This document shows positions 3,991 through 57,848 of a stretch of DNA of 64,000 bases, piece by piece. Within the stretch, counting starts at the first letter, position 1, and the number at the start of each line of letters is the position of its first letter. The stretch is taken from contig JAECYW010000015.1 of the NCBI GenBank assembly GCA_023014335.1, positions 1-64,000 on the forward strand, given 5' to 3'. The notes beneath the pieces are model-generated. The model was given only the letters and a program-made list of their open reading frames with translations, did not search any database and was not told where the DNA came from. This DNA comes from Galerina marginata. Taxonomy: Eukaryota > Basidiomycota > Agaricomycetes > Agaricales > Galerinaceae. The position numbers and the translations under genes are program-made.

Positions 3991-5224
3991 AACATGAAGC
4001 ATTTACTTAGTACCTTCACACTCGAGACCTTCCAAGTAAACAGGCAGATCGTGCAGGCGAATTGAAACAAGGTAAATACTCTAATTTGCTTGTCTGCCCT
4101 CTTTGATTAGCATCGTAATCAGCAGCCGAGTTTCGAGATTCTATTGCCAGCGGAATTCCTTAGATCATCGCCCTCCTCAGTGCTAGCAGCCCTTTAGTTC
4201 GTAAGGCGGTTGGAGATTCAGTTGCCCAACTTTCGGAGCAAGATATGTACGACATCTAATATCTGGTCTCGTGGCGTTGCTGATGAGCATGGAATCATCG
4301 CAGCTGAGTTTCGACGGTCTATTCGGCTTGCCTTTTCCTCAGATTATCGCCCTCTTCAACGATAAGGACGAGGAGATTCGACACGCTGGTTCACGATCCG
4401 TGTCGAATAATGGTAAAGGACTTGCTTCTCATCTCAGCCTAGCTTACAAGTTTCCCATTCAGCCGACTTTTTCGAACCCATCCCGGATGCCATGCCTCAG
4501 ATCGGTGATAAAAGCACTCGTATGGCCGGTGCAAGTTTGGTGGTGAACCGTTGAAGCAAGGTAAAGTGAAAGGTTTCTAGTTCTATGCAAGCGCCACTGA
4601 CCAGAAAGAATCCCAGGCGACATCTGAGCCAAGCACGGCATCTACACCATACCCTGACCACGGAGGGCACATCACCAACTGTACGCTCTCTCACACCTTG
4701 CCTTTATTTTCGTCCCAATTTTATCTTTCTTTTCTTTCTATAGTCTGGTATCACAAAGACTTCCAAGACCGCGTCCTCTGACTCTGGACCTCACTCGCAA
4801 AGCACTATAGAAACCACAAATACATCGCAAGCTACAACCCGCTCAACAGGCCCACCGACGCCAAACACACTCGCGTCATCGCCGTCTATTCTGCCGTGCA
4901 CACCGCCATCCGCGCTGTCGACCCGACCACGGGATCTTCTTCGACGGCAAACACCTTCGCATCTGACTTTTCGCACTTCGGGGATGCACAAAAGAAGTGT
5001 GAACAATACCGCGTACTCGATCCACGACTATTCGTCCTTTGGGTTATCAGGCGCGCAGGAAGTACATGACCAAGACCGCGGTGTAAAGTACTCAAAGATC
5101 AAGTGGACCATTACAAAAAGGGTACACCCATCATGACTTATCTATCGACACAGATAATTGTGTCCATAAATTCCGCTACACCAAAGGGTCTTGTCCGTTA
5201 GGGTTACTTATTGAGCTTCTAATT
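3991..5224. other. No gene recognised; possible left extension of the UTP20 relic
   Basis: Scattered frames only. At 4350-4420 a + frame reads FNDKDEEIRHAGSRSV, which resembles a HEAT-type repeat and could be a further remnant of the UTP20 copy downstream, but this is weak. Confidence 0.35.
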
Positions 5225-7790
5225 GCCGTTTCCGTTCTCAAATGGTCGCTTTCGCCCTTCATTTGCCGCGATTTCTCGCTTTATATCCATCTCGCATTCA
5301 CGTCCTCTTCGAATGGCGGGTCTGCGCCTCTTGGATAGCAGGCTCATCGCACGACCAGGTGGAGGTGTTCAAGCGGTGCCTGCAAAGCGAAGAGGTTTCT
5401 CGTGACATCTAAGGCGTCAGACAGAGGAGTGATAAGGATAGTACACAGGCTGTGGGCGACGAAGGAAAGGAGCGGACCTCTGTGCGAGGGTGGTTGATTG
5501 CTCAGCTGAAAGTTAACCTGAGACCGCTATGGACGCCGGCTGCCGTTGCACTTGGGTCGTTGTTGCAGCGGTTCGGCGATTTGGTTGTGGAGGTTGCTCT
5601 TCAAGGAGCCGAAGAAGGCTACTTTGGATGTTCCGAACCACAACTTGAATGTTTCGGCGTCAGAGTCAACGTCTTCTCTAGAGTCTGGACTATCAGCTCC
5701 TTTCACACTAGGGAATGCTCGCATTAGCAGAGAAGGATAACCATGACTCCATTCTCCAAGTTCTCCCAGTCCCAAGGCACACTATACAACGGATACTTTC
5801 CAATCATTCTAAATCGCCTACCTTTTCCCAATCGGACCACGCTCTTCAGACATATCCTATTTGTCTGTTGACCGCACTCAACCCCATATGATTCTCCTTG
5901 GAGATGTGTTGAAGAACTTGGGTTCAAGGCTTGAAAGATCCTGGCCTGCATTGTTTGGAATGTTGGTCAATGTGACTGCAACCTTACAAGCTCGGATAGA
6001 TGACACAATACAAGGGAAATTGGGGGATACTGAAGGAGACGACATTATGTCGAAGAAACAGGGGCCGACGGACTGCTTCAAAGGCCAATCCGATCGATAA
6101 GGCAGCGGGCCTTAAACGATTCGCGGATTTCTCTGCATTCCCATTCTTTTGAATTCTCACCATTATTGCCCGTTTTTGCGAAGTTGATCTCACCAAGGCT
6201 GCCAGCTCTTGATTGGGAGATCGCCTGAGCCCCTTCTGCTCTGTTGGAGCTGTTCCACGTCTGGATAGTTTTGAATGTTTTATTGCCCCCAACGGTCAAG
6301 CCTTCACGTCAAACCAGATCTTGTCTGAGATTGCCAATACTCCAACTCGGAACAGGCATCCTCTATTACGAAGACCTGCCAAGATTATACCTGAAAACAG
6401 TGAAAGTCGTGTTTTCTTGAATTATCGCATGTTTGATTCCAGATATGAAAGACAAGACGAGCGCGACATACCAGAAGACGTATGGGTTGGATCACAGCCT
6501 GTCAGCGCAACCTCTTCTCTACATTTCGTCGCGGATGAACCTAACTCGAATATCGACTCAGCACGTTTACGTCCTTGAGTGAGACCCTGTACAAGACGAT
6601 CTCATTTTCCGACTGGTTGCCCATTCTACACAACGTGCTCAACTTCATTCAAGGCCTGGCTACCCGCAATAGTGCTTCGTATGCAATGCGTCATTTCGTC
6701 GACTTCGTTGCCGCTAATGCGTCTGCCAATGACGGAGAAACCTTCCTTAAGGTGCTCTATCCCGATCTAAAGAACGCTTTACCTTCGAAGAACGAACTCG
6801 TTCGAGCGGAGATCCTTGGTTAGCAGTCGACAAATGCACGAATTTGGCGCTTTTAGAAGTTCTACTGGAAGCTGGCGACGAAGAAGCCAATTTCTTCAAC
6901 AACATCCTCCATATCCAAGTTCGTCGACGTTCTAGAGCACTTCGTCAGTTGGCGGATCACCGCGACCAAGGACACTTGCGGAGTACAACCATCGCAGAGA
7001 TCTTTGTGCCCCTTGTTAGCTAAATTGGGTCGACCTCTTCTTTGCTCTGCTCGACAATTTTCACTTCTCGATGGAAAAAGCTGTCGCTGTTCCCGAGCCT
7101 ATAAATTAGGAAGCCATGGCTGAAGACGAGGACGATCCTTAGAGTGACACAGGCAGTCAAGAATACTGCACGAATTGCGGATGCCTTCTATCTTCCTACC
7201 CACTTGGAGGAATTCAGACAATGGACGACAATACCCGCATACCCATTCCCATCATTATCATTACACCCAAATCTCAGGAAACGAGAGATCTAACCAGCGA
7301 TTCTATCAACCGCATTGCCGTTGCCCTTGGGCCTTCTTACCTGCCCATCATTCTCCGAGAATTAGGAGCAGCCCTTTTGCATGGCCCATAACTTTATGTG
7401 CCTGCATATGCCTTGATAGTTCGGATCACATCTGGCGAACACGTGGAAGAGTTTTCAAAGTTCGACGACCGCCTCAACGACGCTTGCCTATGTCTTGGTT
7501 GAGGTCAGTTGACTCGATGGGCATCGTTGCAAAATATAAACATATCACACCTGCTGAGATCAGTAGCCTATCGCTTCCTGTGACGACGATCCTGCACCAG
7601 CCGTTTCTGAATTCAAACTCAAGTATTGACAAGTCTGCTCAACGTAAACCCAACCTCTCTCCGCTGCCTCACCCTCGAGCGTTTTTGATTGCCCAACATC
7701 GGTTGGATTCACCGTATCTTGGATTGTGTCCTCGAGCTGAGTCAAAAGTGTTTTGGAGATGCTGCTCCTGGGTGGGTGGGTCAGATCGAA
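5225..7790 (+). pseudogene. UTP20 (U3 snoRNP / SSU processome HEAT-repeat protein) degenerate copy
   Basis: Several separate + frame pieces match UTP20 in order. They are ATRNSASYAMRHFVDFVAA and SKNELVRAEILG (about 6650-6820), EEANFFNNILHIQ followed by a SRALRQLADH block (about 6880-6960), LRSTTIAEIFVPLV (about 6970-7020), and IAVALGPSYLPIILRELG (about 7305-7365). A weaker upstream match is LKVNLRPLWTPAAVALGSL, with the frame changing just after RFGDLV near 5590. UTP20 is a very large (about 2500 residue) nucleolar scaffold for 18S rRNA processing. Here the pieces lie in different frames and are broken by stops, and most of the protein is missing, so this is a decayed partial duplicate; the working gene must lie elsewhere. 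The family assignment rests on remembered conserved blocks, not on a search. Confidence 0.65.
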
Positions 7791-9213: not shown

Positions 9214-11298
9214 CTAAGTACATATCGGACAAATTCCAAAGGAGGAATTACGCACTTGTAAACACTTTGGACGATTCTCTCCTGACAGGCTCCTGTGCCA
9301 CAAATATGCAGATCTTGCCCAGTCACAGAGCCATAGCCGCTCCAGTAGTGGGCATCGTAAATTAAGTTCAGCCTGAACATTTCTATGTTTAGTGTCCACA
9401 TCCATGGTACCACCTGCGGACCAGTCAATGGACAAAGAGTGCAGTTTGGATGGAAATGGAAGCTTGAGAAGATCATCCAAAAAAGTCTTTCAGAGTTTAA
9501 TGAGAAATGTTTAGTTGATAAAGATAAAGTGTCTTGACATACCGATTTGGTAGCGACAACGGTGTGGTCAAATTTTAATTTTAACCTAAGGGACAAATCT
9601 AAGTCTTGCAGACTCGGAAGCAAAGCAAACAATACTGCCAGATCACTGCACTCAATGGAGTTGAACTGGGTGGAAAACTCAGTCACATTTGTTAATTGGA
9701 GTGTGTGAGCAGGCGAGGACAAAACTTGCAAACAATTGAGAAGGGTTCCCGGTCTTGGCCTTGGTTGTTCAGGTGAATGCTGTATAAAGGCAACGGTCTG
9801 GAGGATCTGCCTAATAACACATGGAGGAGATCGTATGGGCCACTATAAAGTTCAAGGTTGGGCGGCGATGATTCAAGAGAAGGCTTTAAAGCTTCAGCAG
9901 TCCGCTTTCCCCCTTCACCCGGTATAAATCCAAAGAGAGGAAGTTGAATGAACCGAAGTGCCGGCATTTTGGAGAGGACCAGTGGTAATCGCATGAGCAT
10001 TTTTTCAGACCTGATAGCTATATCCGCCGTGGAGAGCGACATGAAAGGTCCTATTGAGGGGATGTCCTGGAAGAATATGGCAGATGCACGAGCTGGGCCA
10101 ACTTGAATGAACTCAAGGACATCTGAATCCAACATGGATAACCAACGATTGACACCTAGCATTTCTAGCTCATGGGGCCTGGCCATGTGCCAGAATCTTA
10201 AGGTAGTCAGGCAAAAGGATCTACCAGCTGGGGCTGAAGAAAGTAACTGGCAGCCGCTGAGGTCCATGTCTCGTAAACCCGGTAATCTTAACAATTGCCG
10301 CAACGCGAAGCATCTATTTCGGTATTGGCACACGTGAAACTCTGGGTGTTGGTAAAATTTGGTACCGCCTCGTAGAACTTGCGAACTAAAGAGTCGAGAG
10401 TGTCTGCTATTCCGACTGAAGATTTCGGAATGATTTGTTCGCCACTCAGCGGCCATGGGCACAAGTCAAGACGGCGCACAAAATTCGCAACTTGACCGGA
10501 GCTGTAAAATTTCAAGCGTTGGATTTCATGAGACGTCTCCTCTGGCGAAAGTGGAAACCACTCAGATCTTTTCCAGGCTCCCCGGAGTGTCGTTCTACAG
10601 AAAAAGGGTGGAAGACGAGGGTGCGATAAATGAGTGGAAGTGAAAGTGAGCGAAAAGCTTGGCATGTCAAAGAGACGTTGAACAACGCGGCTTGAGAAAA
10701 GTGCATCGTGATGTCCTCAAGTATATGAAACCAGAGATGAACGGGCAGGCCATCTAGGGCCGACTGAGAAATATGGGCGGATTCCGGGGCATGGTCTTGG
10801 GCTGTAAGCTTCAAGATCTCTTGTTGGCGACACTTGGCGACATTGCCAGTGGAAGCCAAGGGAGCACTTTCTAAGATCGACGCTGAGATCTATCTCATTG
10901 TTAGTACCGTTAAGCTGACTTTAAAGACTAGAGAAATGTACCTGTGGACTCCCCGTGTCTACCTCACCTTGGCCTCGATTATGCATCGGAAGGGTTTTCT
11001 GCTCGGTAGGGATAATTTCAATTCCTTGGGATAGTGAAGAGTGTTGTCTTAGAACCAAAATGGGGGCCTCGGGGTCGTTCTCCATGCCCGACCTAGTAAA
11101 AGCGCCTCTCATTTCCAAAGGATTCAACTTGGCTATGCCAGTGGTCGGTGTTTGCTGAGTAATATAGGTTTCTGTTCGTTCTTCGGCATTGTTGAGTCGC
11201 TGGGCTAGACTTCTCGCCTCTGACGCTGTTTCGGTTTGCAACCTCATATCCTCGAGGCGGATTTCCGACTGCTCGATATTCGCCCACATTTCGGACAT
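9214..11298 (-). pseudogene. F-box / leucine-rich-repeat-like protein, frameshifted
   Basis: Start ATG at 11298 opens an exon with a short coiled-coil-like N-terminus (MSEMWANIEQSEIRLEDM), then an intron 10890-10941 leads in frame to an F-box: LPVHLWFHILEDIT then LPLIYRTLVFHP. F-box proteins dock on SKP1 to select ubiquitination targets. The following 450 residues are leucine-rich, with LLRLPGLRDMDLSGC and LLPSLQDLDLSLRLKL resembling LRR segments. Continuity demands three frame changes with no usable intron: near 10606 (after LVFHP), near 10310 (before FALRQLL) and near 9740 (before CLQVLSS). A last intron of about 9482-9543 is normal and the frame ends at 9214. Either a young pseudogene or indel errors in the assembly; RPB1 in the same window shows no such errors, which favours a pseudogene. 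Confidence 0.65.
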
Positions 11299-13179
11299 CC
11301 TGTGATCACAGTAGTCAGCACTCCTTTTGTTCGAGAGGGGGTGGGTGGAAGATATTCAAGCTTTGCTTCCAGTTGAAACGAATCTTCAGCAGGAGGCGGA
11401 GTATGGCTTTGGTAAAGGAGAATGTGTACAGGAGGCCTGTTTAACAAGCGTCGGCGATGGCATCTCTTATATAAAGGTGCTACCAATGCATGAGTCAAGA
11501 AATCTTGACCCTAGACATCAGAAAAGTCTGACTCATCGTCGTGCGGCCCCAGGCAGTCGGAAGAGCTGTAGATCTAGAGCACTGTGGAGGTTTTGATTTT
11601 GTCCCTGGCGTTGCGTGATACTCATAAACCGGCCCGTATTGACGACCGCCGTGGGAAGTACTACTTAGTTCTGTCCATCCGCCATGATGTTTTTGTCTAT
11701 GCTGTGCACGGATGGGGCGGTGCTCTTCTACTCTACTACAATGGCCACGGTTTCCAAATCAACAGCCGGCGGAGACTTCAACCAAGGATAGAGAATCTGG
11801 GCGGCGTGGCAGACATTAGTCGCTTGTGGCCATGACTCCACTGGCAGCGCTGTGAGCCGGGACGAGGGCGGCCGAGATTCTCTCAAGAAGGTGGCGTAAG
11901 TATGACCCTCTCCGTTAGGCAGCGATTATTGACTTGATTTCGTACAAGTTCGGGGCTATAGTGAGTTGGATCCATGTTTCCTCGACTTCAACACCAACGT
12001 CGGTTTCTCGGGCCATGGCAGGCGTTGCACGAGCCACTCTTGCTCGTGGAATAGCATGTCCACCTGATCCTGTACACATACCTCGTTCTGCCCCATAAAT
12101 GCCCATATTGTCGTGTGTCCTGTCTCCTCTTTCTTCTACTTCGAGCCTGACATACGCCCTTCAGCCATCCAACATCAGCTATCACTGCCATGCCCCTTGT
12201 TTCGACGCGGAGAAGTACGTGATAACAGGTATATTTATTTTCATCCATTTAAAGCTTTTTGAAGATTCTGAACTGACGCACGTACGTCAGATTGGTTATT
12301 GTTCATATATCTAGTACCCTTGCACCCCGCCCATCAACTCTAGGATTCGACGTGTCGGCGTTCAATGTCCCGCGAGCACGCTGTCAAAGTCGAACCGACA
12401 TATTGAGATCTTTGATATAACAAACTGAGTACATGCTGAGTATCAATTCATATCGTCTTCGAATGCTTACTCACCTGGTTTCCGGCCATTTTCAGGACCC
12501 CCAATGCGACCTCGAGATATCAATGTCGAAGTCAGATGTCCCGTGGTAGTCTGCCAGCAACTGCAGCATCCACCTACCGGAGTCCCGAACGCCTGCACCC
12601 ACATCCTTCAAGCCGCGGCGTATGTTCCCGCTGCCTGAAAACAATTCAAGTACCCGATGAACAAATCTTAGCAATGACTCACCAAAACAGCCAGCCAGCC
12701 CTACCTGGGCGCTCGTCCTCACCGCCTGCGGCCACACCTCCAAACCTGGTTGAGAACATACAAGCCCGAAGGCCGAGTGCGGTCTGCCCAATCCGGGTAT
12801 CTCAACTATTGCTGGCAACTGAAACTTCGCCATTAAATTCATTTGCCAGCGTTAATTTCTCAAGCTCGCGTACCCACCACCTTCTTCATCCGTAGGAGCT
12901 GTTACATAAGACCAAGTGATCGTGCGTGACTGTCTTTTCCTTACGCGCCAGCTTGGAGGTGCTTGGTAGTGCACCCTCTGCGGGGGGCCAGCCAGCGGTC
13001 TTATTTTTTTTTCACAATTTTTTTCCTGAACTTTTACTTTGCCCGATATCTCTTTCAATAATTAGCAGCCACCACGATGTCCATGGAAGTCAATTGTTGG
13101 TCTTTGACAGAAGCATACCCAGTCTGAGTCTATGACCTTCTTCCTGTGCGCCTTTGTATTGAATCATTTATGCCATCCT
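11299..13179. other. No gene recognised
   Basis: A 1.9 kb stretch. Overlapping frames at 12492-12895 on both strands have no recognisable motif. The minus frame 11244-11498 could be a 5' exon of the F-box gene but no splice link was found. Copy 2 of the dispersed repeat lies at 12812-12890. Confidence 0.45.
12812..12890 (+). repeat. Dispersed repeat, copy 2
   Basis: Matches 8036-8095. Its extra block, tttgccagcgttaatttctc plus aagctc, matches 23 of 26 bases of the leader of the second pheromone-like gene at about 48311-48336. Confidence 0.5.
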
Positions 13180-13370
13180 ATCTACGCATTGGGACCGACC
13201 AACTTCCACTTTCATCAGCCGCCTCTATTTCTCCTGATCTGACCGACGAAGCGACCAATGACTTCCCATTCGCGATGCAGGTGTCCAAGAAGCATGGGAT
13301 CGTGTTCCTCGTCACGAAATTTGGTTTCATCCACCTCTACGACCTCAAATCCGGTGCCTGCGTGTATGTA
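13180..13370 (+). pseudogene. Clathrin heavy chain fragment (N-terminal beta-propeller part)
   Basis: One + frame reads [20 protein letters not shown] and then [19 protein letters not shown]. This matches a highly conserved propeller stretch of clathrin heavy chain (NDFPVAMQ...[13 protein letters not shown]). Clathrin heavy chain is about 1700 residues; only some 60 are recognisable here. The match ends abruptly at the left edge of the inverted-repeat element that begins at 13371, and nothing like clathrin is seen on the other side of that element. Upstream of 13180 the frame is not convincingly clathrin. It is therefore an isolated exon fragment, perhaps carried here by a duplication. Confidence 0.7.
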
Positions 13371-13489
13371 GTCTGTTTTGTACCACGCCCCCAAAACCAC
13401 GCTAGAAAATCTTTATGTAATCTTCGGACTTTTAAACCCCGGTCCGGCCTTGTCGCGTCAATATTCCTCTCTCCAGCTTTGTTCTTGAC
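13371..13489 (+). repeat. Left terminal inverted repeat of the helicase element
   Basis: Starts GTCTGTTTTGTACCACGCCC; pairs with 14940-15044 on the other strand. A block of about 14 bp near 13435-13450 is absent from the right copy. Confidence 0.75.
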
Positions 13490-13492
13490 GCG

Positions 13493-13605
13493 ATAATTCA
13501 ATCATACTTGCCCAGAAATTTCGCTTCTTTGTGGTCTGAAACCAATAATTCAATCATAATTGCCCATAAATTTTGATTATTTCGCTTCTTTGTGGTCTGA
13601 AACCA
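13493..13605 (+). repeat. Tandem duplication, two units (52 and 61 bp)
   Basis: Unit 1 is 13493-13544, unit 2 is 13545-13605. Both begin ataattcaatcata and end ttctttgtggtctgaaacca. Unit 2 has an extra 9 bp block (about tttgattat). It sits just before the helicase ATG at 13623. Confidence 0.85.
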
Positions 13606-13622
13606 ATTACGAGTCAAAAATA

Positions 13623-14652
13623 ATGGCTTCGGGAAACCGCTGGCAGGATTTCCGAGTCATAGGCCTTGAGACGATTGTAAAGAAAATTCTACCAACCTGG
13701 ACCGACCGTGACGGTCGACACGCGTTCCACCTTGAGCTCGTTTCTGGAATCCTGGACAGAAAGGACATGCGACATGGTTTTCTGTACTGCAACTGGTGCC
13801 GGAAAGTCAGCTGCGTTTGCCGTTCTCCTTGAGTACAACAGCCCAGGAGCCTATTCCCATGGTCTTCCTACTCGAGCAAAGCCTATCACACCAACGAGAT
13901 CTGGCCAAACTCGACGTATCCAGGTTTTCTAAATTCTTACTGCTACGCCTTGACCTACCTTGACGGATGCAAGGAAAACTTGACTCCGCTTGGCAACAGA
14001 AATCAAGGATTGTGTCAGATGGCAAGTCGTGTGTGTGGACCCAAAGCATCTCCGTGACAAGAAGTGGCGCGAAATCAGAGAGCTCACCTTTCGATCCAAC
14101 GCTTATTTGCGTGCGTCGATGAGGTCCACCTGATTAACTCCAGGCCTTTCTTTTCGTCCCGCTTTCACCGTCATTGGAATATTCTTCCGTGGACGCTTTC
14201 CGTCGTCAATTTCTGTTCTTCGGCTCGCAGTAGCTCTCGAACTTGGTCTTCCAACCGAATCTGTTTGCAGGTCTTGACTTTTTTTGAAGGAATGAGCGCC
14301 AAAATACGCACTTCACTATCCTATTCATGGCTCATGGGATGACTGGCAATAAATTTCCAGAATTACTTCCGTACTTGGCTAGCGGAAGAAAGACGATAAT
14401 ACACTGCCAAACACTTCGTCCAGTCCTCAGCGTACACACTTACCTTTGGCGCTGTCAACCGAATGGAGCCAACAAACTCATACAAGCTCGAATTTACCAT
14501 TCGATCAGCACCCTAAAGTACAATCACGAGACGATCCACCTAGTCGAGACTGATCCTCGTTGTCAAATTGTCATCGCGACAGTCGCTTTTTCTAACGGGC
14601 TCAATGCGAAGATGCTGCTTGAATTGGCCTGGGCCGACTCGAAGGTTCACTG
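13623..14652 (+). pseudogene. DEAD/RecQ-like helicase relic of a dispersed agaricomycete family
   Basis: The N-terminus MASGNRWQDFRVIGLETI (ATG 13623) is the conserved start of a helicase-like family I recognise as repeated in mushroom genomes. In other frames follow a Walker A motif in TATGAGKSAAFAV, a Walker B DEVH box in ACVDEVHLIN, and the second helicase lobe in SGRKTIIHCQT and a TDPRCQIVIATVAFSNGLN stretch. The frame changes at least four times (near 13765, 13890, 14110 and 14300), so no complete protein can be made. The whole lies inside the inverted-repeat element 13371-15044, which suggests the family is spread by such elements. Confidence 0.7.
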
Positions 14653-14939
14653 AGCTTGCTGAAGGGAGAGCCGAGAGATGTCAGCGAAGTAATGGGCAAA
14701 GAAAGTTGGAGACTATCAGGAGAAGTCTTGACAGATAGCAACGCTCCAGACTTTGACGAACTGGGTGTAGATTGCGATAGGAAAGAGGAGATGAACCGTG
14801 GTGTTTCCGGCCTTGAACTGAGCGTGTTTCCTTGTATGATTGGACAGTTTGAACATTGTTTTCACTATGAGTCATTCTATAAAGGGGATATAAATTGAAT
14901 TTGAGATGATAGAACACGTTGTGGAACTATAAATGCGTC

Positions 14940-15044
14940 GAGAGTCAAGAATGAGGAGGGAATATTGACGCAACACGGTTTCAAAGTCCAAAGACTATAT
15001 AAACATTTTCCAGCGCGGTTTTGGGGGCGTGGTAAAAACAGGAC
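14940..15044 (-). repeat. Right terminal inverted repeat of the helicase element
   Basis: Read on the minus strand it starts GTCCTGTTTTTACCACGCCC, differing from the left end by single-base indels and substitutions. Confidence 0.75.
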
Positions 15045-16260
15045 TAGATGAGACTTGAGCTCCATGGGAGGTCTTGCATGGGAGGTCTTGCATTTGACTG
15101 CGTTTGAATCGCTTTGCTACAGTAGGAAACAGGGTCCGCAAGAGTCCTTCGCGACGGAGGTAGTGGTAGGACCCAGACTGGCGTTTGGATTGCCTTGTTG
15201 GAGTGGGAAGGAACACAGGCAATCCCAGTGGGTGGAGCCGGCAGTTTGGTTCGCTCTGATGTTGACCTCATTTGAGTGGCACTGTTGGGGTTTTGAAAAC
15301 TGGCCTTACCCACTAGGTGGGCGCATCCAAGTGTAGCTGTCAGTGATCCTCGTTGGATTGGCCCTGATGGTGCCTGAGGGTTGTTAAAAGGGCGGGGTGA
15401 TACACTCTTTGACAAGGGTGGTGGTGGGACATGGGTATGGCAGCCGTTGGAAGCAGGACCGCCTCTTGTTGCTACATTGTCCGCTCGCTTGGGAGGTTTG
15501 TTTGCCTGAAGCTTCGTAGATGGGCGACTCGCCACTTGGTCTTCTGGGTGGTGTTTTTTTCTTGCGGGGACATTCAACTTGTTCGCGTCTGAGTCCAACA
15601 ATTCATCTCCTTCCGAGTCCGACAGGTCGGAACGAGACCGCTTAGGGAAGGATAAATATGTGCAATAATTGAGAAGGCTTGGACCTACTTTGATGCTTGT
15701 TTTAAATCTGTGCCGTAAGTTATTGTGGTGTGTTCGGGTCAGGCGCATAACCAAGTAAATGTTGCTGTCACGGTCCTGCTCCATGAAGCTATCAGGGTAT
15801 TTTTCCAGGATCTGAGTAGAGGTGTCAGGGTGCCGGACAGAGAACAGGTGGAGGTGTTGAATCATACCTTATTTTGAATAGTTTCTTCGGCTTTGAGTTG
15901 GATGCTTGGAGGGTCATCGATGTTATAGTATGTCTCTGAAAGTGATCGAAGGAATTCCTGCTTCCAAGTCGGTATAAATAGCAGACAAAAATCAGTTCAC
16001 TCACGAGCACCCGTACGAGCACATCAGGGTTATTCTTCAATTTCCAAGCATCTGCAAGTTGTAACTTGTAGCTGCGTTTGCCAAGAGGAAGAACACCTTC
16101 AGGACAATTCTCTCCTGTTTCAATGATCAGCTACAATAACATTGAAAGAAAAGGCTGGAGCTTACGAATAGATATAGTCATTATGCCGTGTAGGATCGAA
16201 TGCAAAAGATAAGTAGAAGGTGAGTCTGAAACCCTTTATACGAATCATGTTGACGCGAAC
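15044..16260 (-). CDS. Unrecognised protein, C-terminus truncated by the helicase element
   Basis: Supported exons are 15868-15957, 15689-15811 and 15044-15640, all phase 0, with introns 15812-15867 and 15641-15688. An upstream exon ends at 16005 (LADAWKLKNNPDVLVRVL) and a first exon with ATG near 16240 (MIRIKGFRLTFYLSFAF) is likely, though that junction is unresolved. The middle has a folded-looking block (ILEKYPDSFMEQDRDSN). The C-terminal 200 residues are low complexity, rich in Pro, Ser, Lys, with an acidic SDSEGDELLDSD stretch and a repeated SKAIQT motif. I do not recognise the family. Its stop codon (15044-15046) is made from the last base of the adjacent element plus the TA target site, so the original C-terminus has been lost. 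Confidence 0.55.
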
Positions 16261-17022
16261 CCAATGTTGATCAACAGAGTTTAATCTTTCAGACGCGACG
16301 CGTGTCCACATTCGGCCCGGAACGCAGGCGCGGGATCCTTCTTTCTCACGATTTGTTGGGCGAGCCCACCACTTTCCTCCTCCTAGTTCGACTCGGCCTC
16401 ACCGCCGCTAACGCCTTACATGCTGGTCAGAGCTTCGCGAATTGTTGAAGCCAGGCTGAGGTAAGTGACCCGGCATGACAGATTAATGAAGCATTGGAGG
16501 TCTAGAGTTCGACAAGGTCAGTATCTCGCAACCTGGCGTATTCAGTGAAGCCCTCTGACGAAACCTGACGAAATTTGGCCAGTGATGGAAATAGGCGTGA
16601 ATGACCGTGAGGGCGATCTCGACTGGAGTCCCTGGGTAGGGGGGGTTGTGGTGCCGGAGGCTTAGAAAAAATTTATTGTTAGGGCGTCAAATTTCGAATT
16701 TGGTAGCTGCCCACGGTGTACTACATAATAATTTATTCCCTGGGACTTTTTATGATACGGAAAAGACTCATTCTTGATAGCTGGTCCACATTTACCTCCG
16801 GCGGGGAAGATTTTTGATAACTGACAGGCAAAGCGAGACTTCAAAAACAGTGCAGTACCATATATTTGATGCGTATCATATCTCGCGCTGCCGGAGGAGT
16901 TTGACAACCTAATTGTAGGAGCCTCCCAGTTCCCCGCAAGTTACTGATCTTTGTGTCTGCACAATTTTGTCAGACATCATACAGAGTGCTTGGAATCAAC
17001 AGCTTTTTGCCCCCCTTTCTTC
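16261..17022. other. Intergenic, no gene recognised
   Basis: Between two minus-strand genes. One open frame (16662-16907 -) has no family features. Confidence 0.45.
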
Positions 17023-17786
17023 CTAAAATCCTTCTTGAGGCCAAGTCAAAGTTGACAGTGGATCATCCTTATTGATCACGTAGACTATGTCCTCGTCCTT
17101 TTTGGCCTAAGTGAGTTGTCAGTTTTTGCCAGTCCTCACAGCAACCATGACTGACCTGGAGCTCTTCCAATCTGTCAGTCAATAACTTTTCTGTCTGATG
17201 CTTAGCGCGCCAGGTCTCTTCAATTTCTTGCTCCAATTCTATGCGTCTCCTTTCTTGGTCTGCGATCTGCAAGAAGTTTGAATGGGGTCAGTAACGTTCT
17301 TCATAGTTGGAAATCACGTGTACCCTCGCCTTGGATTCTTTGGGCTCTTGAACAACTCGCTCTTCCGCCTCTTCGAGAGCCTTCACCCTTTCGACGAGAG
17401 GGACAAGGAATCTAATGACAGGGTGCACGGCACCGATCCATTTATAACATCATGGCCTGCCTGGACAGTGTCAAAGTCATTAGAATAGCCATATAATGGA
17501 AAAATAAGACTTACCTAGCAATTTTGCTGCGGATTGGGAAACCATTTGACAAAAGCACGTAAATCTCCTGTGAGTAAAACGAAAGGATTGCGAAAGGAGG
17601 CCCAGTACAGGACCTATCAGAAACTTCACATTTGCCTCGCACCGGGTGGCTGTACTCAAGTGCAAAGAATGCTCCATGCGTCAACCGCACAGTGCTTAAT
17701 TTCCCAACCAAATGAACACCAATGTCGTCTACCGCTAACGATATGAATTCGGCAAGCCTCCCACAAATGACGCAGCCTTTCCACAA
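17023..17786 (-). CDS. Small coiled-coil protein, unrecognised
   Basis: Four exons can be joined in frame. They run from a 5' exon beginning near 17786, through FALEYSHP, then a GFPIRSKIAR exon, then FLVPLVERVKALEEAEERVV, then the coil exon (RRRIELEQEIEETWRAKH), and finally KKDEDIVYVINKDD ending at 17023. Introns begin GTGCGAGG, GTAAGTCT, GTACACGT and GTCAGTCA. The Glu/Lys/Leu-rich heptads from the third exon to the end predict a coiled coil of about 70 residues. The family is not recognised, the start is uncertain, and the first exon may extend upstream. No frameshift is needed. Confidence 0.45.
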
Positions 17787-18949
17787 CCGTACGCGAGGAT
17801 GGCAAAGACAGGAAGAATCACTGGCAATGACGACGGCAGCAGCGACAACTGGAAGTAATTGAGACTGCTGTCCAACTTTGGGCTAACGTCATTGATTCGG
17901 TAGGCGTCCGTGCCTGCCATTGTGCCCATGTATCTATTTTTTTGCTGCCATCCATCTCGCCAGACGATACCTCCTCCCCTCTCCCTCCAGATTCCGCATA
18001 AATTGCTATCAGCATTGACAGCGAAGCCGGTGGCTGCAATAACCGGAAGCAGTCGAGGCTGCTGTTCCGACTCGGTTGGACGTTGGTGCAATTGTTTTCT
18101 TCCATATCAAAGGCGGCGCGGAGGAGCGAGACGTTAACGATAACGGCGGCGGCTTCCTCAGTGCTTCTCCGACGGTCGTACTGGCCGAACATTGGGTAAC
18201 GAGAGTTCACTGGCTCTTAGAAACAACGTAAGCAAGTGTTCAACAAGAGAAGGAATGGGAACCACCTGAGAGCTGCACCGAACGGATGCGTGGAGATCAC
18301 CACCTCCTAAAGCAAACCTGGCACAATTTCGCATCATTATCTAGGTGGCGAACGCAAGCAACGACGTTTCCTGTTGTGTCCTTTCGGGGTGTGCGACTAC
18401 ACAGTGGTCGAGCATGGCTTGAGTCACTGCAGTACGATACGAACTGTTGCTCGTTGGAAATGGAAGGCAAGGAGGGTATGGATGAGCAAAGGGACCTGGT
18501 AAGAACGATCCCTGTGCTCGTGAACAAAAGTGCGATGGAAAAAGGAGTGCGCGGCGTGGGGTAGCAGTGAGTGCGGTCAAAGTGCAGTTGCAGCGTCGAG
18601 GATTCGAGAGGGAACCATAACGGTGCAGGAAGAAAATGGTTGGGGCAGCGAGGACGCCAAATTCCCAACGCACTTGCGCCAGCAAAATAACGGGCAGGAT
18701 TGAGGTGTCAGTCACAGTGGGTGATGGAGCTGGTAGGTAAAGAAAACAAAATTAATCAGGAATCGAGGGGCAATGGTGAAAAAACGTACCAACATTCAAA
18801 CTTAAGGCCCAGTGACAGTGCGGGTTGTTCAGTTTGGATAAGATTGGTTGTATTTGGAATTTGTCTGTTCAGATCGGTTACTGTTGGTTGAGTTCAACAT
18901 CGATTCAAAATCCAGGGGTCTGTGAAGATTATAAGAACTCACTTTTACA
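17787..18949. other. No gene recognised
   Basis: Overlapping frames on both strands at 17735-18210 and 18286-18715 look like shadows of each other. Two stretches of about 60 bp (near 17835 and 18020) are roughly two-thirds identical, hinting at an old local duplication. Confidence 0.4.
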
Positions 18950-40988: not shown

Positions 40989-42556
40989 ATGGCTTCTTCA
41001 AATATCCTGCCACCGACTGTCCTCGATTACACAGACAATATTCATAAGGAACCCAACTATATATCAAAACTTGCGGAAATTGGCGGCATTGTCTCTTCAA
41101 GCCGAGATGCTTTCATTCGACGTATCGAATCGTCGCAGGCAGAAGAAAACCTTGAAAGTCGAGAATTCAAGCTCCCAAGTAAGAGGTCCCTATTCATAAT
41201 CATTGGAGGAAATGCCCTATTTCAGGTGTGTCGATGCGTTCAATAGGTGTGAGAACAGTCAATATTAATTCAAGGGTCATGCATCAAAGGCTTCATTCTT
41301 CATCGTCGTCTCCTCAGCCAGTGCCTATGCGGAACACCTTGGGGGATCGGCTACATTCTCGGGTCTAACAATCGGAATTCCCACCGTTTTCTCTGGTTTT
41401 GCATTGATATTCGTTACTAGGCTCGATGCAGGTGCGTATGGTGGTCATAGGTCATCTATATTTCTCTTTCCCTAATCAGATAAAATTAGGGCGGTATAGG
41501 CAACCTTTAAATCTCGCATACGCAGCGATGTTCCTAGGAAACATCCTTTATGCACTTGCCTATCATGCAAACTGGCTCTACCTCATACTCATTGGTCGTA
41601 TAGTCTCGGGGTTTGGATTCATTTCCTTCATGTACAGCAAGCGCTACTGCTCGGATCCACGTATCGTCGGTATCCGTCGCCGCACAACTCTTGCGAGCTG
41701 GCTCGTTATTGGACAGGCGTTCGGATTTTCCGCCGGCCCATTTTTCGGGGGTCTACTTTACAAAGTCGGTTTCTCCAACCCAGTCTTTAACGGGTACACA
41801 AGCCCAGGTTGGATCATGTCCGCCATTTGGGTGATGTTCTGGGGTTTGAGTAACCTCATATTTCAGGATGTGCCCCGGCCTCGCGACCAATCCATCGAGC
41901 TAAGGCCAACCACACAATCAAGTAATGACGCCCCATCACCCGCGATAGAGGAACCTCAAAACCCTTCGGTGTCCCTTCCGCAATGGGGTGTAATCGTGTG
42001 TATGTGTTACTACTCCATGACATGTTTCTTCATTCTCGGCAGCTGGGAATCCAACATCCCAGTCTTCACCGCCAAGGCACTCAACTACTCCCCATACAAC
42101 GCAGGAAATTTCATCGCTTTAGGCGGTATCACATCTTTCCCTTTCCTCCTTCTGAACGTCTGGTACGCACGCCGCGTCCAAGACCGCGTCATCCTCGCCA
42201 TAGGCACCTCGCTTGGCATGCTCGGCCTTCTCATCATGCTCAGCATCCTACAGACGGCCAAAGTCACTTTTGGCTCCCTATTCGTCTGCTGGTTCCTCGT
42301 CGCGTTAGGATTCAATCTGGCTAGTACATGCACCTTGAGTTTGCTCTCGAAGCAGCTCCCGGATACATGGAACAGGAAAGTAAGCATGGCGATTCAATAC
42401 AGCAACTATGCAGGTCGTGTCACTGGAGCCATCCTTGGAGGAGCAGGTGTAAAGATGGGGATGGTCAACTATATTGCAGTGCAAATAGGTGTTGTCGGCC
42501 TGGGCGGAGTCATGTATTTAACATTGTGGAGGCAGCTAAAAGCCAAGACCGGCTAA
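40989..42556 (+). CDS. MFS transporter (MFSD8/CLN7-like shape)
   Basis: Exons 40989-41225, 41290-41431 and 41490-42556 sum to 1446 nt, 481 residues plus stop. A hydrophilic N-terminus of about 60 residues precedes the helices, beginning SLFIIIGGNALFQ. Typical MFS features follow: LIGRIVSGFGFISFMYSKRY (loop 4-5 region), VIGQAFGFSAGPFFGGLLY (motif C-like in TM5), a polar central loop (about residues 285-315) and six further helices ending YLTLWRQLKAKTG. The closest shape I recognise is the SPX-less/MFSD8 group of vacuolar or lysosomal carriers; the substrate is not deducible. ATG 40989 is the first in frame after a stop. It lies 400 bp before a second MFS gene of a different subfamily. Confidence 0.82.

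Positions 42557-51151: not shown

Positions 51152-57848
<6,697 letters not shown>

Follow-up and report, generated by a model that had tools for sequence, protein, structure and literature searches.

Which kind of mobile element left long inverted repeats and a decayed helicase gene on a Galerina marginata contig, and how did it move without a transposase? We addressed this question for a 64,000-nucleotide stretch of contig JAECYW010000015.1 (positions 1 to 64,000, here called the window; contig C7 below). A sequence-only reading had described there an inverted-repeat element with TA duplications, carrying a helicase gene and no transposase; the repeats and the helicase were borne out, the TA duplications were not. 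The locus very likely derives from a cut-and-paste transposon of the AcademH kind and is a dead, non-autonomous copy (Table 1). Its parent would have had terminal inverted repeats (TIRs) around two convergent genes, one for a DUF6589 protein, whose predicted fold is that of an RNase H-like DDE transposase, and one for a RecQ/DEAD-type superfamily 2 (SF2) helicase.

The window copy, its relatives and their ends

A DNA search of the genome (69.3 Mb, 43 contigs) with the window element gave 71 matches. Besides the query locus, these comprised a single near-identical copy, on C9, several long but partial matches to helicase sequence, and many short ones to the ends. The window-family sample comprised 20 elements or fragments (the window, L042/L043, L044, L045, L046, L047, and L048–L061); end-like matches at C9:117204, C17:450444, and C12:4185666 were left out of it. 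Sixteen of the 20 had both ends, the window and L047 were without the left tip, L045 was without the right end, and in L046 no end was found.

The longer copies carry both genes. In L042/L043, L044, and L045, helicase open reading frames (ORFs) lie near the left end and DUF6589-gene ORFs lie on the opposite strand; L042/L043 measures 9170 bp between its ends and L044 6265 bp, and the right end of L045 is altered. For the long copies, the Pfam scan covered pieces of L042 and L045, and the DUF6589 gene of L044 was placed by genome search.

Against L045, window positions 13365–14622 matched 1270–2589 and positions 14617–15031 matched 7002–7426. At the sequence level, a single internal deletion of ~4.4 kb relative to L045 explains the window copy and is why this copy has no transposase. 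The deletion may have arisen by repair at a short repeat. Both genes persist as remnants. In the helicase remnant, the Pfam matches to DEAD (E 0.016) and to Helicase_C (E 0.013) fall short of the curated cut-offs; two pieces share 86% and 67% identity with the helicase of a longer copy, and the upstream one contains three TGA codons. This agrees with the decayed RecQ/DEAD-like helicase proposed earlier. The minus-strand ORF at 14601–14861 was the source of a match to the N-terminal part of the DUF6589 gene, with 50% identity over 68 columns to L045 (E 3e-11) and 43% over 72 columns to L042 (E 2e-6), each E value referring to a single comparison. The earlier claim that a transposase is missing therefore stands for the window copy and fails for the longer copies, which encode the DUF6589 protein with its transposase-like predicted fold.

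Table 1. Features at the window locus (window coordinates).
Feature	Position	Strand	Remarks
Remnant of two-gene DNA transposon, left-truncated, with one internal deletion	13365..15046	+	Homology to L043, L044, L045, L048, and L049 begins at 13365; GGACTA ends at 15046
Inverted-repeat core, left copy	13381..13398	+	Internal to the element, not its tip
Decayed SF2 helicase gene (DEAD + Helicase_C)	13623..14622	+	Stops and frame breaks; ATG at 13623 in the homologous frame, placed by eye
Internal deletion junction	14617..14622	.	L045 matches 1270-2589 and 7002-7426 meet with 6 bp overlap
N-terminal coding remnant of DUF6589 gene	14616..14810	-	Faces the helicase; similarity to L045 and L042
Inverted-repeat core, right copy	15017..15034	-	
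Right terminus AACAGGACTA	15037..15046	+	Outermost bases of the element
Clathrin heavy chain fragment joined to truncated left end	13248..13367	+	Clathrin_propel E 0.0019, below cut-off; 96% identical to C5:42513-42632

The repeat core TACCACGCCCCCAAAACC occurred twice in the window as exact inverted copies (expected 0.03 within three mismatches). Genome-wide, the search with this core gave 11 exact copies, against none for the control pattern read backwards. The arms at 13366–13473 and 14942–15049 are 108 nt long (~120 bp in the sequence-only reading) and 73% complementary; like the two cores, they lie far above chance. Comparison of flanks among copies placed the limits of the element beyond TACCACG: the right end runs on to AACAGGACTA at 15046, and the left, helicase-side end of other copies lies ~60 bp farther out, at TAGTCTCTCCTAGCCAGAC or a close variant. 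This outer left part is absent from the window copy, whose homology to the longer copies starts only at 13365; it has thus lost its left tip and could not be scored for a duplication. Since the outer ~60 bp have no counterpart at the right end, the two ends of the family are unequal. Within this outer part, the motif GATATATG stands twice in L048–L061 (e.g., L048 and L052), with one copy varying in L057 and L049.

The 16 two-ended copies had 13 exact 9-bp duplications, two exact 10-bp duplications (L050 and L051), and one 9-bp duplication matching at eight positions (L044). The flanks of L050 and L051 are identical, and so the two represent one insertion site; the L042/L043 duplication was read by eye from the flanks. 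Helicase-bearing copies were among those with duplications (L042/L043, L048, and L049 exact at 9 bp, L044 at 8/9), so the helicase does sit within a TIR element that inserts, as had been proposed.

Taken alone, the window shows a helicase remnant and a TA next to each core but no domain of a transposase, and so invites the view of a TA-duplicating element that has no transposase of its own and carries the helicase as cargo or engine. The flank comparison, extended over the 16 two-ended copies, ruled out TA as the target-site duplication: the TA next to each core is internal, and the family duplicates 9–10 bp. The longer copies moreover encode DUF6589, early codons of which the window retains, and this view has next to no probability.

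The same ends also bound 12 short copies (L050–L061) of 516–529 bp, a size too small for either gene and as would be expected of non-autonomous derivatives. Mobilisation in trans may account for both these short copies and the window copy, at a time when each still had complete ends.

DUF6589 as probable transposase and its helicase partner

The predicted DUF6589 model resembled Hermes, the P-element, and other DDE transposases, with hAT and P-element transposases as the best solved relatives; sequence identity in the first eight rows of fold matches was 6–9%. Residues D, D, and E are conserved in DUF6589. In Hermes, the RNase H-like core is split by a helical insertion. Judging from this model, DUF6589 is very probably the transposase of the element, with catalysis most likely residing in the predicted fold and its conserved residues. 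The protein would bind and cut the ends and join them to a staggered cut of 9 bp in the target; as a guess, the helicase might open strands at the ends or take part in gap repair.

Pfam scans of six DUF6589-gene ORFs matched PF20231 only in five cases and nothing at E ≤ 0.1 in the sixth. Of three DUF6589 proteins, two matched PF20231 only, and that of L065 added a weak unrelated match (E 0.24). The L064 helicase matched DEAD and Helicase_C, both above the cut-offs. No nuclease was named in the scan of eight ORFs and six proteins, which also listed a sub-threshold Cas3-like helicase match (E 0.037) and one ResIII helicase-type match.

We then counted both genes across the genome; the totals are lower bounds. 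DUF6589 gave 45 matches (30 loci), and three helicase queries gave 65 matches (31 loci). A helicase lay within 8 kb of 16 of the 30 DUF6589 loci, where chance would give ~0.007 per locus for any helicase neighbour; the helicase list is skewed towards such elements because the three queries came from them. Orientation was convergent in 15 of the 16 pairs, and the sixteenth shares its neighbour's helicase on C17. Without a partner within 8 kb were 14 DUF6589 loci and 16 helicase loci, the latter including the window copy, its C9 twin, L048, and L049, the rest being mostly distant (24–47% identical) or short. Among the distant or short copies, L046, a helicase fragment on C24, was the one checked for ends, and BLAST found no match to them.

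Three other DUF6589 and helicase families showed 8–9 bp duplications in four of five copies (L062–L066). No difference separates L062 from L063 over 5629 bp; their inverted repeats measure 239 bp, and their duplications 8 bp and 9 bp, respectively. A locus on C43 gave the same search scores and is probably a third identical copy. L064 (5463 bp) is flanked by an exact 9-bp duplication. Over 5673 bp, L065 and L066 do not differ; at the borders given by their pairwise comparison, L066 has an exact duplication of 9 bp and L065 none. Copies identical over 5.6 kb in two families make recent movement plausible, a point weakened by the L065/L066 pair, which lies on one contig with only L066 duplicated. 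In L065 (C43), an additional, incomplete terminal repeat at 643–788 adjoins the left end and, with the missing duplication, suggests a nested or rearranged insertion. The terminal sequence of three families is TAGTC, and that of the fourth is CAGGC. A search for TAGT...ACTA ends with a duplication gave one match in L064 and none in L065 and L066, which were missed because their family starts with CAGGC; reversed-sequence controls gave no match in three sequences.

TIRs of 237–239 bp in two families, together with the duplication length of the window family, could also point to Mutator-like elements (MULEs) that captured a host helicase, as MULEs also produce duplications of ~9 bp and may bear long inverted repeats. 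Yet the scanned DUF6589-gene pieces and proteins listed PF20231 and no MULE profile, the MULE transposase domain being pfam10551 in the accessible part of PMC8290104, and no MULE transposase was seen inside the same ends in the scanned ORFs. The helicase also recurs convergently beside divergent DUF6589 genes, unlike a one-off capture. We regard this origin as very improbable.

Among the best 120 of 155 DUF6589 relatives, the named hosts were mushrooms and allied Agaricomycetes, and the same was true, where hosts were named, of the best 120 of 177 relatives of the window-family helicase; being capped, neither list is informative about more distant hosts. Many of the helicase relatives bear the name P-loop NTPase or DNA 3'-5' helicase. 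These results tie a large, unnamed protein family of mushrooms to transposition, and many mushroom database entries for DUF6589 "hypothetical proteins" and for "P-loop NTPase / DNA 3'-5' helicase" are very probably two genes of one transposon group. With DUF6589 named as the likely AcademH transposase, genome projects could mask both genes and not count them as host helicases. The naming would also offer a way into the question of what a DDE transposon needs a helicase for.

Surroundings of the window copy

The truncated left end and the clathrin fragment share 3 bp (TAT) at their junction, as read by eye. The C5 clathrin copy differs from the window beyond this junction and, again by eye, seems to read on. 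Clathrin heavy chain sequence was also found on C21 and C22, as if gene pieces had been copied several times.

The C9 copy (L047) is 99.94% identical to the window over the element. Between window 9549–18546 and C9:30000–39000, 9001 of 9001 fetched bases matched at 99.9%; the duplicated block, at least 9 kb long, lies near the starts of the two contigs. Because L047 sits inside this larger block, it gives no proof of a second insertion, and two independent insertions on C7 and C9 are unsupported. A search of the window for three TTAGGG units, allowing up to one mismatch, gave no match as a subtelomere sign.

The L042 element on C10 exceeds L044 by ~2.9 kb. The extra part (L042 ~4980–7490), inside which inverted repeats lie at 5767–5836, is perhaps another insertion within the 3' part of the DUF6589 gene. 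Elsewhere in the window, a minus-strand ORF of 1156 aa (51746–55216) with YSPTSPS-like heptads at its end resembles, by eye, the largest subunit of RNA polymerase II, and an ORF of 382 aa (41408–42556), likewise by eye, resembles a membrane transporter of the MFS kind.

Comparison with AcademH and other transposons

AcademH, in the Academ superfamily, was reportedly described by Kojima in 2020 (Mob DNA 11:15). In the accessible parts of later papers, AcademH elements encode a helicase and duplicate 9 or 10 bp of target (PMC10045372), their helicase domains are DEAD/Helicase_C, and the lineage occurs in Basidiomycota, Ascomycota, and Mucoromycota (PMC10799480); putative nonautonomous Academ elements are mentioned for the mushroom Marasmius oreades (PMC8290104). 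A layout of this type has therefore been named, contrary to the sequence-only reading. Duplications of 9 or 10 bp were found in the 16 two-ended window-family copies (one with a mismatch), L063, L064, and L066, the exceptions being L062 (8 bp) and L065 (none). The helicase has DEAD/Helicase_C domains (below cut-off in the window, above in L064), and the predicted fold with conserved D, D, and E residues suggests a DDD/E transposase. Because helicase, DDE transposase, and 9–10 bp duplication fit AcademH, we assign the element to this known kind; it is most likely AcademH, as judged by the description in citing papers rather than by its sequences. The comparison, which covered helicase, duplication length, and host range, showed no difference from AcademH. 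In the window family, the left end exceeds the right by ~60 bp.

DUF6589 and helicase elements could alternatively be a separate, undescribed superfamily that resembles AcademH only in duplication length and helicase, that is, an unnamed look-alike across Agaricomycetes with a hAT/P-like DDE transposase obligately paired with a RecQ-type helicase. Consistent with this, the best solved relatives of the model are hAT and P-element transposases, and the comparison with AcademH was by description, without a transposase sequence. Our full-text search found no mention of DUF6589, a weak absence given incomplete literature coverage, and for PF20231 gave only an unrelated optics paper. On the other side, duplication length and helicase both coincide with AcademH (PMC10045372), which occurs in Basidiomycota (PMC10799480), as far as the accessible text goes. 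We consider a separate superfamily unlikely in either wording. Under the AcademH assignment, DUF6589 is most likely the AcademH transposase, judging from the predicted model, and we did not find this assignment in print.

Transposases of hAT (Hermes) and P elements gave the best fold matches of the predicted DUF6589 model. The P element duplicates 8 bp; we know of no helicase gene in hAT or P elements, and of no TIRs or duplications in Helitrons. According to the accessible part of PMC12730594, hAT duplications are usually 8 bp, against 9–10 bp here. AcademX, of the same superfamily by name, encodes a nuclease and duplicates 3 or 4 bp according to the accessible part of PMC10045372; here the element has a helicase and 9–10 bp duplications, and no nuclease was named in the scanned ORFs and proteins. 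The same text gives 4–10 bp for IS256/MuDR and TA duplication as the rule for Tc1/mariner, and the 16 two-ended copies have 9–10 bp instead of a 2 bp TA. Helitrons are likewise helicase-bearing transposons of fungi (PMC4289320 and PMC12730594, in part), with an HUH nuclease and single-stranded transposition (PMC12730594); the element described here differs from them in its TIRs, its 9–10 bp duplications, and the DDE-like predicted fold of its transposase candidate.
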